A DNA stretch of 60,358 nucleotides from NCBI RefSeq assembly GCF_000374645.1, contig NZ_KB894818.1, positions 1 through 60,358 on the forward strand, written 5' to 3'. Made by a program: the position numbers and the translations under genes. Under the pieces are notes generated by a model. The model did no database searches, was not told the origin of the DNA, and was given only the letters and a program-made list of their open reading frames with translations. Positions within the stretch are counted from its first letter, which is position 1, and each line of letters opens with the position of its first letter. The DNA comes from Arhodomonas aquaeolei DSM 8974 (GTDB taxonomy: Bacteria > Pseudomonadota > Gammaproteobacteria > Nitrococcales > Nitrococcaceae). Positions 1-54,914 of the stretch are shown in pieces.

Positions 1-452
<452 letters not shown>

Positions 453-49215: not shown

Positions 49216-50256
49216 ATGATCGAAGCCGACCGCGTCGTCAGCTCCACCGCCCTGCCCGAAGACGAGGCCGTCGACCGCGCCATCCGGCCGCGCCGGCTGA
49301 GCGACTATGCCGGCCAGCCCCGGGTCCGCGAGCAGATGGAGATCTTCATCTCCGCGGCACGCGGGCGCGACGAGTCGCTGGATCACACCCTGATCTTCGG
49401 CCCGCCGGGCCTCGGCAAGACCACGCTCGCCAACATCATCGCCCACGAGCTCGGCGTGAACCTGCGCCAGACCTCCGGCCCGGTACTCGACAAGCCCGGC
49501 GATCTCGCCGCGCTGCTGACCAACCTGGAGCCCGGCGACGTGCTCTTCGTCGACGAGATCCACCGCCTCGCACCGGTGGTCGAGGAGGTCCTCTATCCGG
49601 CGATGGAGGACTTCAAGATCGACATCCTCATCGGCGAGGGCCCGGCGGCGCGTTCCATCAAGCTCGACCTGCCGCCGTTCACCCTGGTCGGCGCCACCAC
49701 CCGCGCCGGGCTGCTGACCTCGCCGCTGCGCGATCGCTTCGGCATCGTCCAGCGCCTGGAGTACTACAGCGTCGAGGATCTCGCCGAGATCACGCGCCGC
49801 TCCGCCGGTCTGCTGACCCTGGACATCGACACCGGCGGCGCCGAGGAAATCGCCCGCCGCGCCCGCGGCACGCCGCGCATCGCCAACCGTCTGCTGCGCC
49901 GCGTGCGCGACTACGCCGAGGTCCGCGCCAACGGCCACATCTCCGCCGAGGTGGCCCGCGCGGCCATGGACCTGCTGGAGGTGGACACCAACGGCTTCGA
50001 CATCCAGGACCGGCGGCTGCTGCGCGCCATCATCGAGAAGTTCGACGGCGGCCCGGTGGGTGTGGACAACCTCGCCGCCGCCATCGGCGAGGAGCGCGGC
50101 ACCATCGAGGACGTGATCGAGCCCTACCTGATCCAGCAGGGCTACCTCCAGCGCACCCCGCGCGGACGCATGGCCACCCGCAGCGCCTGGAGCCACTGCG
50201 GCTTCGCGCCACCCCCGCGCGGCGAGCTGCCCGGGGATCTGTTCGCCGACGAGTGA
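49216..50256 (+). CDS. ruvB: Holliday junction DNA helicase RuvB
   Basis: AAA+ motor of 346 residues that drives branch migration with RuvA. Walker [12 protein letters not shown], Walker [10 protein letters not shown], sensor VGATTRAG and the C-terminal winged-helix ending RTPRGR are all present. The ATG at 49216 follows GGAGGTG. Its TGA overlaps the GTG start of the sensor kinase gene, so ruvB runs directly into the two-component genes. Confidence 0.97.
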
Positions 50257-51737
50257 CCGCCGTGCGTCCCCGCTCGCTACTCTCGCTCATCCTCCTCGGC
50301 TTCGGCTTCGTGATCGTGCCGCTGTTCGTGGCCCTGGGCTACGCCGGCGTGTACGTCGACCGCCTCTCCGAGCAGGCGCACACCACGGTCTACAACGCGG
50401 CCCGCGCGATCCAGCTCTCCAGCAACCTGGACGACAGCCTCACCGCGCTGGAGCGCGCCGCGCGCCAGCACCTGGTACTGGACGACGAGGGCCTGCTGGA
50501 GGTCTACCGTAACGCCCACCAGCAGTTCCGCGACAACTTCAACGAGCTGCGCCGCTTCGCCACCACCACCACGCAGCGGCGGCTGCTGAGCGTACTCGAC
50601 GAGCGCGAGCAGACCCTGTTCGACACGCTCACCGCCGAGAGCGCACCGGCCGGGCTCACCCAGGAGGTCGTGACCGACCGCTTCATCGCCATGAACCAGC
50701 TCGCCGAGGCGGTCAGCACGCGCAGCAACGACGTCATCGACCAGGAGGTCCGGCGCATGCAGTCGCTGGGGGCCACCGCCCAGCGCTGGCTGTTCTGGAT
50801 GGGCGCCGCACTGCTGCCGCTGACCCTGATCTCCGCCGGTGTGTTCACCGTGCTCATCTCCCGGCCCATCCGGGGTATCGACCAGGCCATCCGCCGGCTC
50901 GGTGCCGCCCGCTTCGACGAACCGATCACCGTCTCCGGCCCCCAGGACCTCCAGGCCCTGGGCGCACGACTGGACTGGCTGCGCAACCGGCTCATCGAGC
51001 TGGAGAACGAGAAGACACGCTTCCTGCGGCACGTCTCCCACGAACTCAAGACGCCGCTGACCGCGATCCGCGAGTCCAGCCAGCTCCTCAGCGAGGAAGT
51101 GGTCGGCCCGCTCAACGACGAGCAGCGCGAGATCGCCACGATCCTCGACGACAGCGGCCGCCAGCTCCAGGGCCTCATCGAGGATCTCCTCGACTTCTCG
51201 CGCACCCAGTCCCAGCTCCCCCAGCTCCGCCTCGGGCAGGTCGACCTCGGCGAGATCGCCGCCGACGTGCTCGGTCGCCACCGCGCGGCGATCCGCGCCC
51301 GTGAGCTCCACCTCGACTTCCGGGAGACGGCGGTACCGATGCGCGGCGATGCGGAAAAACTGCGCACGATCGTGGACAACCTCCTCTCCAATGCGATCAA
51401 GTTCTCGCCCACCGGGGGCCGCGTTCGGGTTACCATCGAACCGGACAATGAGTGGGTGACGCTGGCCGTCGAGGATGACGGCCCGGGGGTGCCGGAAAGC
51501 GAACGAAAGCGCATCTTCGAGGCTTTCTACCAGGGAGGTAACCAGCCGGAAGGTTACGTCAAGGGCACGGGCCTCGGCCTGTCGATCACCCGGGAATACG
51601 CCCTCGCGCACGGCGGTCGCATCGGGATCGGCGATGCCGGCGATGACGCCGGCGGCCGGTTCAGCGTGATCCTGCCGTTGCGCGGCCCTGCCCCGCAGCA
51701 CGCGAGGACCGCGCTGGCGGCAGCGGGCAAGGAGTGA
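50253..51737 (+). CDS. glrK: Membrane sensor histidine kinase, GlrK (QseE)-like, GTG start
   Basis: The 494-residue kinase has a first membrane segment (about 10-33), a periplasmic helical sensor (about 34-178), a second segment (about 179-203), a HAMP-like linker, phospho-acceptor H263 in [18 protein letters not shown], and an ATPase domain (N box [32 protein letters not shown]). It is followed by a lipoprotein and a GlrR-like regulator in the enterobacterial glrK-qseG-glrR order. The GTG overlaps the ruvB stop (GTGA); a GTG at 50262 is an alternative start. Confidence 0.88.
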
Positions 51738-51744
51738 TCGACGC

Positions 51745-52290
51745 ATGAAACGCATGATGGCCGTCCTCGCGCTTACGGCCACCGCCCTCGCGGGCTGTCA
51801 GAATCTGCACCGGAAGGCACCACCGCCGCAGCAGCAGCTGCCGGACACCGAACCGGGACCCGTGGCCATGGCCCTCCAGGCCGTGCGCGGCAGCCAGGGC
51901 CTGTCCGGTGACGAACTGCGCGAGCGCATGACACACCAGCTGGCGGAGCGCACGGACGGGCGTTGCGACGCCGCCGAGCTCAGTGCCGGCATACTCGCCC
52001 TGCGTCTGCCCGGCAATGCGGAACCGCCGGCCATCGACGGGCTTTTCGACGACTGCCTGGACGCGGCCGCCACCGCGGATACGCCCGCCGGCGTGCTCGC
52101 GGCGGTCATCGCCGACGGGCTGTACTGGCGCGGCGAGGCCGCGGCCGGCCACGCCGGCAACAAGGGGCTGAAGACGGCGATCCAGGAGCTGCGCGCGGAG
52201 AACGCCCAGCTGCGCGATCAGCTCGAAGGCCTGAAGGCCATCGAGGAAAGCCTCCAGCAACGCGAACAACAGCGGAACGGGACCCAGTAA
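51745..52290 (+). CDS. qseG: QseG-like lipoprotein
   Basis: The 181-residue product has a lipoprotein signal (MKRMMAVLALTATALAGC, acylated cysteine at 18). After a proline/glutamine stretch, a helical body and a charged C-terminal coiled coil (about 140-178) follow. Position between the kinase and regulator genes identifies it with QseG (YfhG), which in E. coli sits in the outer membrane and activates GlrK. Sequence similarity is expected to be low. The assignment rests on position, size and lipobox. Confidence 0.75.
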   Translation: MKRMMAVLALTATALAGCQNLHRKAPPPQQQLPDTEPGPVAMALQAVRGSQGLSGDELRERMTHQLAERTDGRCDAAELSAGILALRLPGNAEPPAIDGLFDDCLDAAATADTPAGVLAAVIADGLYWRGEAAAGHAGNKGLKTAIQELRAENAQLRDQLEGLKAIEESLQQREQQRNGTQ

Positions 52291-52292
52291 CC

Positions 52293-53630
52293 ATGACCAC
52301 GGCCTACCGCATCCTCGTGGTGGACGACGACCCGGGCGTGCTCCGCCTGCTCTCCATCCGCCTGCGCTCGCGCGGCTACGAGGTCACCACCGCCGCGAGC
52401 GGCGAGGAGGCGCTGGCGCACATCACCGCCGTGCGCCCGCACCTGGTGATCACCGACCTGCGCATGGACGGCATGGACGGCATGACGCTGTTCCAGCGCC
52501 TCCACGACCAGCACCCGAGCCTGCCGGTGATCATCCTCACCGCGCACGGCACCATTCCCGAGGCGGTACGGGCCACCAAGAGCGGCGTGTTCAGCTTCAT
52601 CACCAAACCGTTCGAGGCCCCGTACCTGCTCCAGCAGGTGGAGAGCGCCCTGCGGCTGTCCGGCGCGATCCCCGCCGAGGACGACGAGGACGCGGCCTCC
52701 CAGGCCTGGCGTGCCGAGATCATCACCCGCAGCGCGGCAATGGAGGAGATCCTCCAGCGCGCCCGGCTGATCGCCCCCAGCGAGGCGAGCGTGTTCATCC
52801 AGGGGGACAGCGGCACCGGCAAGGAGGTGCTCGCGCGGGCGATCCACCGGGCCAGCCGCCGTGCGGACGGGCCGTTCGTGCCCGTCAACTGCGGCGCCAT
52901 CCCGGAACAGCGCCTGGAGGCCGAGCTCTTCGGCACCGCCGACGGCCAGACCGGCCTGTTCCGCACCGCCGACGGCGGCACGCTGTTCTTCGACGAGATC
53001 GGTGACATGCCCGCCGCGCTGCAGGTCAAGCTCCTGCGCGTACTCCAGGAGCAGCAGATCCACCCGTCGGGGTCGAACACCCCGGTGCCGGTGGACGTGC
53101 GCATCGTCTCCGCCACCCACCGCGACCTTGAGCAGGCCATGGCGGACGGGGAATTCCGCGAGGACCTCTACTACCGGCTCAACGTCGTGTCCCTGCACCT
53201 GCCGTCCCTCTCCGAGCGCCGCGAGGACATCCCCCTGCTCGCCAACCACTTCCTCCGGGAGCTGGCGACGAAGTACGACAAGGACCTCCGCAGCCTCGCC
53301 CAGCCGGCCCTGGAACGGCTGGTCAGCGCCCCCTGGCCGGGCAACATCCGCCAGCTCTACAACGTCATCGAGCAGGTCGCCATCCTCTCCACCGCATCGA
53401 TCGTCTCCGACGACCTCGTGCGCAAGGCCCTGCGCGACGACACCCCCGGCCTGCCGGCCTTCGCCGACGCCCGCCGGGACTTCGAGCGGGACTACCTGGT
53501 CAAGCTGCTGCAGATCACCCAGGGCAACGTCACCCAGGCCGCCCGGCTTGCAAAGCGCAACCGCACCGAGTTCTACAAGCTGCTCAATCGCCATGAGCTC
53601 AACCCGGGGATGTTCAAGCCCCAGCGCTGA
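52293..53630 (+). CDS. glrR: GlrR (QseF)-like response regulator with AAA+ domain lacking the GAFTGA motif
   Basis: The 445-residue regulator has a receiver domain with D11, D12, phospho-acceptor D55 and K105. Its AAA+ domain has Walker A at 171-178 (GDSGTGKE) and Walker B near 231-236 (LFFDEI). A C-terminal Fis-type helix-turn-helix follows (GNVTQAARLAKRNRTEFYKLLNRHEL). Between ELFG (211-214) and GGTLF (228-232), where sigma-54 activators carry HxxGAFTGA, this protein reads only TADGQTGLFRTAD, about eight residues short. The loop that contacts sigma-54 is therefore absent. Known regulators without it (TyrR, R. capsulatus NtrC) act on sigma-70 RNA polymerase. Otherwise it follows E. coli GlrR closely, including NRTEFYKLL. 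Confidence 0.9.
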   Translation: MTTAYRILVVDDDPGVLRLLSIRLRSRGYEVTTAASGEEALAHITAVRPHLVITDLRMDGMDGMTLFQRLHDQHPSLPVIILTAHGTIPEAVRATKSGVFSFITKPFEAPYLLQQVESALRLSGAIPAEDDEDAASQAWRAEIITRSAAMEEILQRARLIAPSEASVFIQGDSGTGKEVLARAIHRASRRADGPFVPVNCGAIPEQRLEAELFGTADGQTGLFRTADGGTLFFDEIGDMPAALQVKLLRVLQEQQIHPSGSNTPVPVDVRIVSATHRDLEQAMADGEFREDLYYRLNVVSLHLPSLSERREDIPLLANHFLRELATKYDKDLRSLAQPALERLVSAPWPGNIRQLYNVIEQVAILSTASIVSDDLVRKALRDDTPGLPAFADARRDFERDYLVKLLQITQGNVTQAARLAKRNRTEFYKLLNRHELNPGMFKPQR

Positions 53631-53646
53631 CCCCCGCCCCCGGTGG

Positions 53647-53664
53647 TGTCGCGGCGAAACGACG
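53647..53664. promoter_or_regulatory. Possible GlrR site 1 (one mismatch)
   Basis: TGTC (53647-53650), ten bases, GACG (53661-53664). It differs from the GlrR motif TGTC-N10-GACA at the last base. It lies 17 bp after the glrR stop and 52 bp before the exact match at 53716. Confidence 0.45.
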
Positions 53665-53715
53665 CCGGATGCCACCGGGGCCGGGAATCCCCGCCCCGGC
53701 TGGGACCCGGCGCGG

Positions 53716-53733
53716 TGTCGTTACTTCACGACA
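53716..53733. promoter_or_regulatory. Possible GlrR site 2 (exact TGTC-N10-GACA)
   Basis: TGTC (53716-53719), GTTACTTCAC, GACA (53730-53733). It exactly matches the motif described for GlrR upstream of glmY/glmZ in enterobacteria. It lies about 105 bp upstream of the candidate sigma-54 -24 element, a normal enhancer distance. A/T-rich DNA (53745-53785) separates it from the promoter and could help bending. Confidence 0.6.
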
Positions 53734-53836
53734 GACACCGAGAACTCAAAAAAATCACTCTAAAAACAGCCTTTTAAAAATACGCCCGTGCCCTTCTGAA
53801 ACGCCTGCCCGGCCCCCGATTAGACGCGCCGGAATG

Positions 53837-53852
53837 CGGTGGTAGTCTTGCA
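53837..53852 (+). promoter_or_regulatory. Candidate promoter of the small RNA: sigma-54-like, overlapping a weak sigma-70 match
   Basis: CGG (GG at 53838-53839), ten bases, GC at 53850-53851 in TTGCA. The -12 half fits consensus well, while the -24 half keeps only GG. A weak sigma-70 reading overlaps: TAGACG (53821-53826), 16 bp, TAGTCT (53843-53848). E. coli glmY also has overlapping sigma-54 and sigma-70 promoters. Either is unproven. Confidence 0.4.
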
Positions 53853-53862
53853 CCCATGGCAA

Positions 53863-53962
53863 GACACGGCGCCGCGCAAGCGGCACGACGCCAAACGGTT
53901 CACGCGCCTGCAGGCTTCTTTAGCCCCGTCACCCCCTCATTCCGGTCTGCAGGTGCTTTTTT
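53863..53962 (+). ncRNA. Candidate small RNA downstream of glrR
   Basis: About 100 nt if transcription starts 12 bases after the sigma-54-like element. The 5' part holds a perfect hairpin, GCCGC-GCAA-GCGGC (53871-53884), with a GNRA tetraloop. The 3' part is a 10-bp stem (one G-U pair) ending in six T. Its 33-base loop is C-rich (CCCCGTCACCCCCTC) and complementary to G-rich Shine-Dalgarno sequence, as in many regulatory RNAs. No ORF fits. Placement next to glrR, with GlrR-type sites upstream, parallels glmY beside glrK in E. coli. Similarity to GlmY/GlmZ is not evident by eye. Confidence 0.55.
53904..53962 (+). terminator. Intrinsic terminator of the candidate small RNA
   Basis: GCGCCTGCAG (53904-53913) pairs with CTGCAGGTGC (53947-53956), ten pairs including one G-U, followed by TTTTTT (53957-53962). 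The loop is 33 bases, long for a terminator, and may be a functional exposed region. Confidence 0.6.
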
Positions 53963-53971
53963 CTTCCTGAA

Positions 53972-53993
53972 CGCCCCCGGGAACCCGGGGGCG
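53972..53993. other. Perfect GC hairpin after the small RNA
   Basis: CGCCCCCGGG - AA - CCCGGGGGCG, a 10-bp perfect stem with a 2-base spacer. No T-run follows on the plus strand. It may back up termination or act as an operator before tolQ. Confidence 0.45.
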
Positions 53994-54038
53994 CTTCCCC
54001 CGGTCCACCGCCTGTAGCCATGGCCGTCATGCAGCCGC

Positions 54039-54067
54039 TTGCCGCGCCGAGGCAGGATAGCTACATT
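54039..54067 (+). promoter_or_regulatory. Possible promoter of the tol-pal operon
   Basis: TTGCCG (54039-54044), 17-bp spacer, TACATT (54062-54067), both 4/6 to consensus. This leaves a leader of about 130 bases before tolQ. Assigned by sequence alone. Confidence 0.4.
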
Positions 54068-54206
54068 GGCGCTCCATTCGCCGCGCGCAACCGTCCCCGC
54101 AGCGGGGCCGGCAGCGCACGGCGCGGCCACGGTGCCGGGGGGCACCGAATCGCCGGCACGGGCAGCCGGGCCATCGTCCACAGATCGTCGCGAGCGGAGA
54201 CCATCC

Positions 54207-54914
<708 letters not shown>

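Follow-up and report, generated by a model that had tools for sequence, protein, structure and literature searches.

Organization of the glrR-tolQ intergenic region

The window analysed here, a continuous stretch of 60,358 nucleotides from Arhodomonas aquaeolei DSM 8974, carries glrK, a glrG/qseG-like gene and glrR, followed by a gap of 576 bp (53631-54206) that separates the glrR stop (53630) from the tolQ ATG (54207) (Table 1). The glrR product matched best to the NCBIfam GlrR model NF011695 (606 bits, short of its cut-off of 763; runner-up model, 388 bits), and the glrK product matched NCBIfam histidine-kinase models, none above cut-off among the matches listed. For the glrG/qseG-like product, NCBIfam gave no match and Pfam just a sub-threshold match to bZIP_2. 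By tblastn, a relative of glrK lay beside glrR in each of eight contexts from related genomes, and a relative of glrG was detected in seven of the eight and undetected in one. The contig end holds a partial 16S rRNA gene (1-451, minus strand, Rfam match).

Table 1. Features of the glrK-tolQ region and their positions in the window
Feature	Position	Strand	Basis or remark
glrK, sensor histidine kinase	50253..51737	+	ORF; name from position
Small lipoprotein gene (glrG/qseG-like), flanked by kinase and regulator genes	51745..52290	+	Lipoprotein-type signal by eye; name from position
glrR, sigma-54-dependent response regulator	52293..53630	+	NCBIfam
GlrR-type site 1, TGTC-N10-GACG	53647..53664	.	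Direct reading
GlrR-type site 2, exact TGTC-N10-GACA	53716..53733	.	69 bp after site 1
A/T-rich stretch, sites to promoter	53743..53783	.	Direct reading
Weak sigma-54 promoter CGGTGGTAGTCTTGCA	53837..53852	+	GG 53838-53839, GC 53850-53851; 7/12 consensus positions
Predicted sRNA, ~101 nt	53862..53962	+	Start inferred 11 nt after GC; promoter position and T run
5' hairpin GCCGC-GCAA-GCGGC, GCAA tetraloop	53871..53884	+	Fold; lineage-specific
Conserved core hairpin: stem of 13 pairs, long unpaired loop	53904..53956	+	Covariance model, covariation
Loop AGCCCCGTCACCCCCTCA, proposed seed	53922..53939	+	Without substitution in 9/9 genomes
Six-T run	53957..53962	+	Core hairpin thereby a possible terminator in the window
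Second GC-rich hairpin, no T tail	53972..53993	+	Same position as the relatives' second hairpin
Sigma-70-like promoter TTGCCG-N17-TACATT before tolQ, downstream of RNA	54039..54067	+	Loose pattern
tolQ, neighbour outside RNA	54207..54914	+	TIGR02796, 296.8 bits, cut-off 221 exceeded

Direct reading recovered every gap feature described in an earlier sequence-only reading of this DNA, each where that reading had placed it. The core stem, given there as 10 bp, comprises 13 pairs if G-U pairs are counted, and its C-rich loop and six T stand as described. The gap had also been called free of ORFs; short ORFs do span it, including ones of 43 aa (GTG 53839) and 53 aa (ATG 53856) that start just 5' of the inferred RNA start, but none of at least 15 aa begins inside the transcript predicted for the window. 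Simple scans of the gap found neither a sigma-70 promoter nor a short-loop terminator. The sigma-70-like pattern before tolQ was devised after the match had been seen and occurs six times in the window against 1.8 expected; a stricter promoter scan did not report it.

An exact TGTC-N10-GACA site is expected by chance about 0.006 times per 576 bp, and the 3.96-Mb genome contains 42 of them versus 18 for the reversed pattern. Fifteen of the other exact sites were examined, two of which had a sigma-54 box of at least 9/12 lying 60-300 bp away on either strand. The window's sigma-54 box (53837-53852) keeps GG and GC in register; because 398 of 400 stretches drawn at random from the window held one as good, this box alone provides no evidence. 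The stability of the gap's fold was unremarkable (z -1.78; 13 of 200 shuffles equally stable). On its own the window makes a weak case, and it is conservation that raises the feature above chance.

A conserved hairpin with an invariant C-rich loop

Comparison of the gap with 59 related genomes by blastn recovered a segment of 47-76 nt in seven relatives of the same family. Four further matches were weaker (E 2e-4 to 5e-4) and lay elsewhere in the gap; a family genome supplied one of these. The conserved segment is the core hairpin, with a stem of GCRCCUGYAGG and CCUGCAGGUGC enclosing AGCCCCGUCACCCCCUCAUUCCGG. A covariance model (R1) built from eight sequences, that of the window included, scored the core hairpin (53904-53956, loop AGCCCCGUCACCCCCUCA) at 83.4 bits (E 2.8e-23) in the window and gave strong matches (E 1.4e-11 or better) in 9 of 54 genomes of the order, all within the window's family (n = 23); eight of these nine had themselves built the model. 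Weak matches of at most 30 bits occurred in three other genomes of the order (G032, G025 and the family member G010, which has no glrR orthologue and matched at 20.7 bits). Among 369 genomes of the class, searched with stricter filters, with 13 candidates scored per genome and with few members of the window's family present, the sole strong match was in the window's own genome, and eight of the 369 gave weak matches (at most 30 bits). A collection of named genomes contained the loop pattern in 44 contigs, seven of which fitted the model at E 1e-12 or better, namely four labelled Nitrococcus (including N. mobilis Nb-231), one Gammaproteobacteria MAG and two Ectothiorhodospiraceae (one MAG and one WFHF3C12); the best of the other 37 reached 25.9 bits. 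Near an apparent gltX, around position 1500 of locus L029 (genome G074), a weak model match (E 0.003) with a similar loop, AGCACAGTCACCCCTTCAT, could be either a distant copy or chance.

Across the nine genomes with strong matches the 18-nt loop showed zero substitutions, one inserted C in G005 being its only change, and the ninth and most diverged sequence (G003) kept the loop while its stem was changed on both sides at two pairs. Alignment of the gap across relatives, proposed in the sequence-only reading as a search for covarying stems, pointed to one: 2 of 13 stem pairs carried double changes (three cells) and 99.1% of cells were paired, against just 26-44% in slid alignments. The covariation score was equalled by 5 of 500 shuffles and the count of double-changed pairs by 32, and we regard covariation support for the stem as modest. 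The two hairpins first described fared differently, since the C-loop hairpin is conserved in relatives but the 5' GCAA hairpin is not. Within this comparison, the C-loop hairpin is the conserved core of the predicted RNA.

Linkage to glrR, GlrR-type sites and sigma-54 boxes

Orthologues of glrR (69-100% identity) were present in 9 of the 23 family genomes, exactly those with a strong hairpin match. The other 14 form one small-genome genus, probably Spiribacter, and none had a strong hairpin, some of these genomes being incomplete; GlrR-like matches at E 1e-90 in three of them showed at most 42-43% identity. In all nine genomes the core hairpin begins 270-626 nt 3' of glrR on the same strand, and ruvB-glrK-glrG-glrR-RNA is the common gene order in the window and the eight relatives' contexts.

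TGTC-N10-GACR sites precede the RNA in nine of nine family genomes, and in seven they are joined by a sigma-54 box of at least 9/12 with GG and GC in register, an arrangement found zero times on the minus strand and zero times in 20 rounds of shuffling. The two exceptions are the window (7/12) and Nb-231, whose box matches at 9/12 but has GT for GC. Boxes in G004 and G003 were perfect (12/12; 5 and 3 of 400 random stretches, respectively, did as well) and that of G007 matched at 10/12 (21 of 400), and the 9/12 boxes of five relatives were individually common, with 81-155 of 400 random stretches as good. A site with at least six of the eight fixed letters sits 93-95 or 104 bp before the promoter in eight of the nine genomes, that of G004 having only six. 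In the window the site nearer to the promoter is 121 bp away, outside the relatives' range of 93-104 bp, and the promoter-to-hairpin distance is 67 nt versus 60-61 nt in G004 and G005. In all nine genomes the 100 bp preceding the promoter have a higher A/T content than the gap does up to that point, and the A/T-rich stretch of the window is a possible IHF-type bend site. Control by GlrR and sigma-54, as the sequence-only reading had suggested, is consistent with the sites in nine of nine genomes and the good box in seven, although the window's own box is weak.

Predicted transcript and coding potential

The predicted RNA consists of a variable 5' part and the core hairpin with its open C-rich loop. 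With ends set by eye, it measures 101 nt in the window, against 127-215 nt in relatives, so that the size of about 100 nt originally proposed applies to the window but not to its longer relatives. A second GC-rich hairpin follows the core in the eight relatives, with at least five T directly after it in about half. The window differs in that the core hairpin itself is followed by six T, versus a TTTCTTCT-like tract and the second hairpin in most relatives.

One-base, frame-breaking indels occur inside the core hairpin, two of the nine predicted transcripts contain no ORF of at least 15 aa, and no frame is shared among the rest. Both the indels and the lack of any common ORF speak against a coding function, and the short RNA gene next to glrR is probably non-coding, nine predicted transcripts without a conserved reading frame being what is looked for in a trans-acting sRNA.

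Candidate targets and proposed mechanism

Over UCACCUCCUU, the loop core GUCACCCCCUC and the 3' tail of 16S rRNA are alike at 8 of 10 positions, where we take the anti-Shine-Dalgarno tail to be AUCACCUCCUU, with the 16S 3' tail also given as GAUCACCUCCUUA. Because of this resemblance, the loop could pair with ribosome-binding sites of the GAGGGGGUGA type. Seed complements before ATG were searched in the nine genomes with the reversed pattern as control, some rows of the output representing one place twice: GGGTGACGGGG-N0-12-ATG gave 11 matches versus 2 and GAGGGGGTGA-N0-14-ATG gave 28 versus 5, figures for which the reversed control is unfair to ribosome-binding-site motifs and of which few resemble real starts. 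The candidates, with genes named by eye, include the start of an mltF-like lytic transglycosylase gene in the window's genome (L289, G000:C6 near 84008), where a 12-nt loop complement lies in the ribosome-binding site and ends 2 nt before the ATG; the frr start in two Nitrococcus (L270, L280); and a prsK-like start in two Nitrococcus (L260, and L241 with a G-U pair). Target prediction with the loop, as the sequence-only reading had recommended, produced candidates but none common across genera among the seed complements of the nine genomes, and since no gene recurs we claim no target. The glmS start was also tried as a target and is not supported, pairing of the loop alone being no better than that of shuffled loops in nine of nine genomes (42 to 98 of 100 shuffled loops at least as good).

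The comparisons support a real conserved element and bear out in substance the proposal of the sequence-only reading, a small RNA gene without annotation that is linked to GlrR and sigma-54 and is here placed in the Nitrococcus group. In each of the nine family genomes that have the orthologue, hairpin and GlrR-type sites lie by glrR. In these genomes the core of the candidate gene is conserved, linked to glrR and, judged by its indels, non-coding, and GlrR-type sites precede it. The best explanation, to which we assign a probability of about 0.65, is an sRNA activated by GlrR and sigma-54 whose C-rich loop pairs with G-rich ribosome-binding sites. GlrK/GlrG would phosphorylate GlrR, which would bind the two TGTC-N10-GACR sites and activate the sigma-54 promoter at 53837. 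The resulting RNA would combine its variable 5' part with a stable hairpin presenting a C-rich loop of ~27 nt, in which GUCACCCCCUC would pair with extended G-rich ribosome-binding sites and mostly repress translation. Transcription, GlrR binding, pairing with ribosome-binding sites and a role in envelope stress are inferred, as are the repressive effect and the candidate targets.

Alternative readings of the conserved element

The location of the hairpin invites the reading that it is a leader or attenuator of the ybgC-tol-pal operon and yields no free sRNA, tolQ lying ~240 bp downstream in the window and coming next in five of eight relatives' contexts. In the other three contexts, the next gene is a convergent transporter of SulP type (named by eye) and the hairpin and sites are still intact; with a convergent neighbour, the RNA is no tol-operon leader there. 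The second hairpin coming after the core and the sigma-70-like pattern before tolQ in the window, though absent from the stricter scan, also speak against a leader, and we consider this reading quite improbable. An element that served only to end transcription of glrR or its neighbours, with no separate RNA gene, would account for the stem, the T run and the weak promoter of the window, but as a terminator it would need neither the invariant 18-nt loop nor upstream GlrR sites and a sigma-54 box, and relatives have a second hairpin after the core, making this explanation very hard to sustain. It is unlikely that the loop owes its conservation to protein binding or to a decoy (sponge) function instead of acting as an antisense seed. 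The 18-nt loop lacks substitutions in nine genomes although no conserved target appears, and GlmY itself acts as a decoy (PMC7073468); against this, no GGA motif of the CsrA kind was seen by eye in the loop, and complementarity to G-rich ribosome-binding sites is the reported mode of C-rich-loop sRNAs.

Homology to GlmY/GlmZ, with action through RapZ and glmS, is a further reading, since the type of regulator, the sigma-54 promoter and the length predicted for the candidate, as well as its place by the glr genes, resemble those of GlmY. Moreover, rapZ was found in 11 of 11 genomes searched, all nine sRNA genomes included, and glmS above the model cut-off in 22 of 23 family genomes, again including all nine. 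Against it, the search with Rfam GlmY/GlmZ covariance models recommended in the sequence-only reading gave no match in the gap to E = 10, nor in the nine loci to E = 1, and Rfam as a whole returned no family at threshold in the gap or the nine loci. The RNA lies 3' of glrR and not 5' of glrK, which is preceded by ruvB in the window and in eight of eight contexts, and complementarity of the loop to glmS is not above shuffles. RapZ ends 1-3 residues past RHREL/RHREM in six of the nine sRNA genomes, those with a readable tail, which would be short beside the tail of E. coli RapZ. We judge homology to be exceedingly doubtful, and by the tests made here the candidate sRNA is not a GlmY/GlmZ homologue. 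The RNA-binding domain of RapZ, together with GlmY/GlmZ, is stated to be restricted to Enterobacteriaceae (PMC7073468); given this restriction and the short RapZ tail, a GlmY-like decoy for RapZ is unlikely. GlmY was the analogue named in the sequence-only reading, and it fits the predicted layout of control but finds no match by GlmY/GlmZ covariance models.

The position after glrR across Gammaproteobacteria

Of the 54 genomes of the order, 33 had a glrR orthologue at E 1e-130 or better, as did 78 of the 339 genomes of the class. Downstream stretches were read at the 9 loci of the family, at 21 of the 24 other loci of the order and at 68 of the 78 other class loci; the 3 order and 10 class loci left out had the weakest GlrR matches. 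Five paralogue loci (L110-L114, 39-43% identity) were dropped, three stretches were shorter than 700 nt (L150, L154, L207), and one genome contributed two class loci (L161, L199). A site with promoter was counted wherever a GG-N10-GC box of at least 9/12 lay 60-300 bp after a GlrR-type site, within 700 bp. This arrangement occurred in 5 of 21 order and 25 of 68 class loci in addition to the seven of nine family loci, compared with 0, 0 and 0 on the minus strand and shuffle averages of 0, 0.05 and 0.1 for family, order and class. Neighbouring sites downstream of glrR were 63-69 bp apart in 21 of 28 spacings. The distance from the last site to the promoter was 80-84, 91-94, 103-105 or 112-113 bp in 26 of 37 cases and longer (136-254 bp) in 11, a spacing that suggests helical phasing.

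By-eye assignment of products at the 30 non-family loci with site and promoter gave 14 EF-hand proteins (L117, L118, L136, L138, L145, L146, L152, L154, L156, L187, L213, L223, L225, L226), seven loci without a convincing ORF before the terminator and nine that were other or unclear. The EF-hand proteins are small (~74-175 aa) and carry a signal peptide, with 3 of the 14 tested and confirmed by Pfam, and are a possible calcium-binding output of GlrK/GlrR. Locus L153 has a promoter and an EF-hand protein and no site by the pattern used. The ORF-less loci (L142, L149, L191, L195, L203, L126, L128) encode further candidate sRNAs, and their predicted transcripts were not matched by the family covariance model. 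CCTCC, CTCCTT or CCCCTC occurred in six of these seven transcripts in sense orientation and in two of seven in antisense, and of 500 rounds of shuffling 2 reached six; as both the motif and the ends of the transcripts were selected after inspection, this is a lead only. The same anti-Shine-Dalgarno segment was also sought in the 3' UTRs of EF-hand mRNAs and discarded there (4 of 14 versus 3.85 in shuffles).

Other genes near this position were named by eye. At L155 and L192 the slot precedes an apparent exosortase-associated acyltransferase gene, and at L163 and L206 an opgG-like glucan biosynthesis gene follows it, directly or past a small ORF. A group of loci (L119-L125, L127, L131) has one, mostly two, GlrR-type sites ~67 bp apart shortly before ybgC-tolQ, with no strong sigma-54 box in between (L125 has one of 9/12), which suggests either direct GlrR control of tol-pal or loss of the sigma-54 unit.

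We tentatively propose, at slightly less than even odds, that the position 3' of glrR is an ancient and exchangeable output slot of GlrK/GlrR in Gammaproteobacteria, in which paired GlrR sites and a helically phased sigma-54 promoter are retained and what they drive varies: in some lineages a small periplasmic EF-hand protein, in others sRNAs unrelated to one another, the majority of which contain a C/U-rich segment resembling the anti-Shine-Dalgarno. On this view the RNA of the Nitrococcus group and, by analogy, enterobacterial GlmY would independently occupy GlrR-controlled output. A QseF-like group is listed in a comparative sigma-54 paper, and the words EF-hand, GlrR and TolQ are absent from the portion of its text consulted (PMC3162934). 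Among the open-licence PMC matches listed, no title or abstract opening described an EF-hand/RNA slot after glrR.

Implications and comparison with known small RNAs

One known GlrR-activated sRNA is GlmY of Enterobacteriaceae, the family to which GlmY/GlmZ and the RNA-binding domain of RapZ are tied (PMC7073468). The sRNA candidate of the Nitrococcus group has no detectable GlmY similarity, appears to be controlled in a similar way and lies at the opposite end of the operon. The candidate RNA, its seed and its promoter offer a handle on the role of GlrK/GlrR outside the enterics, and a slot occupied in some cases by an EF-hand protein and in others by an RNA suggests a general output of envelope signalling.

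Among known systems, the candidate most likely resembles the C-rich-loop sRNAs in its action and GlmY in its control. In E. coli and other Enterobacteriaceae, GlmY is, as predicted for the candidate, an sRNA beside glrK-glrG-glrR with a sigma-54 promoter and upstream sites of the GlrR/QseF consensus, E. coli glmY having three such sites described by TGTN12ACA (PMC6075780) and the consensus being given elsewhere as TGTCN10GACA (PMC8745638). Unlike the candidate, GlmY lies 5' of glrK rather than 3' of glrR. The candidate also differs in lacking covariance-model similarity, in having a core made of a single hairpin with a C-rich loop and in showing no sign of glmS pairing, and the RapZ tail of its genomes is short where readable.

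In sX13 of Xanthomonas and GsrN of Caulobacter, as described, a C-rich loop is borne on a stem and pairing with G-rich mRNA motifs has been proposed or shown. The mRNAs repressed by sX13 carry G-rich motifs near their translation starts (PMC3771888), and the C-rich loop of GsrN is its most conserved part (PMC5869019); in the candidate, too, a stable stem exposes such a loop, and the loop is the most conserved part. The likeness is drawn from descriptions rather than sequence comparison, no Rfam family matches at threshold, and the settings differ, sX13 lying downstream of polA and GsrN belonging to the sigma-EcfG response, whereas the candidate is tied to GlrR/sigma-54. The anti-hemB RNA of Burkholderia (RF02837) is alike in having a C/U-rich stretch followed by a GC-rich terminator, but it matched just one of the nine loci, far below threshold (G005, 26.3 bits versus a gathering cut-off of 49.5), and shares with the candidate a generic layout only.
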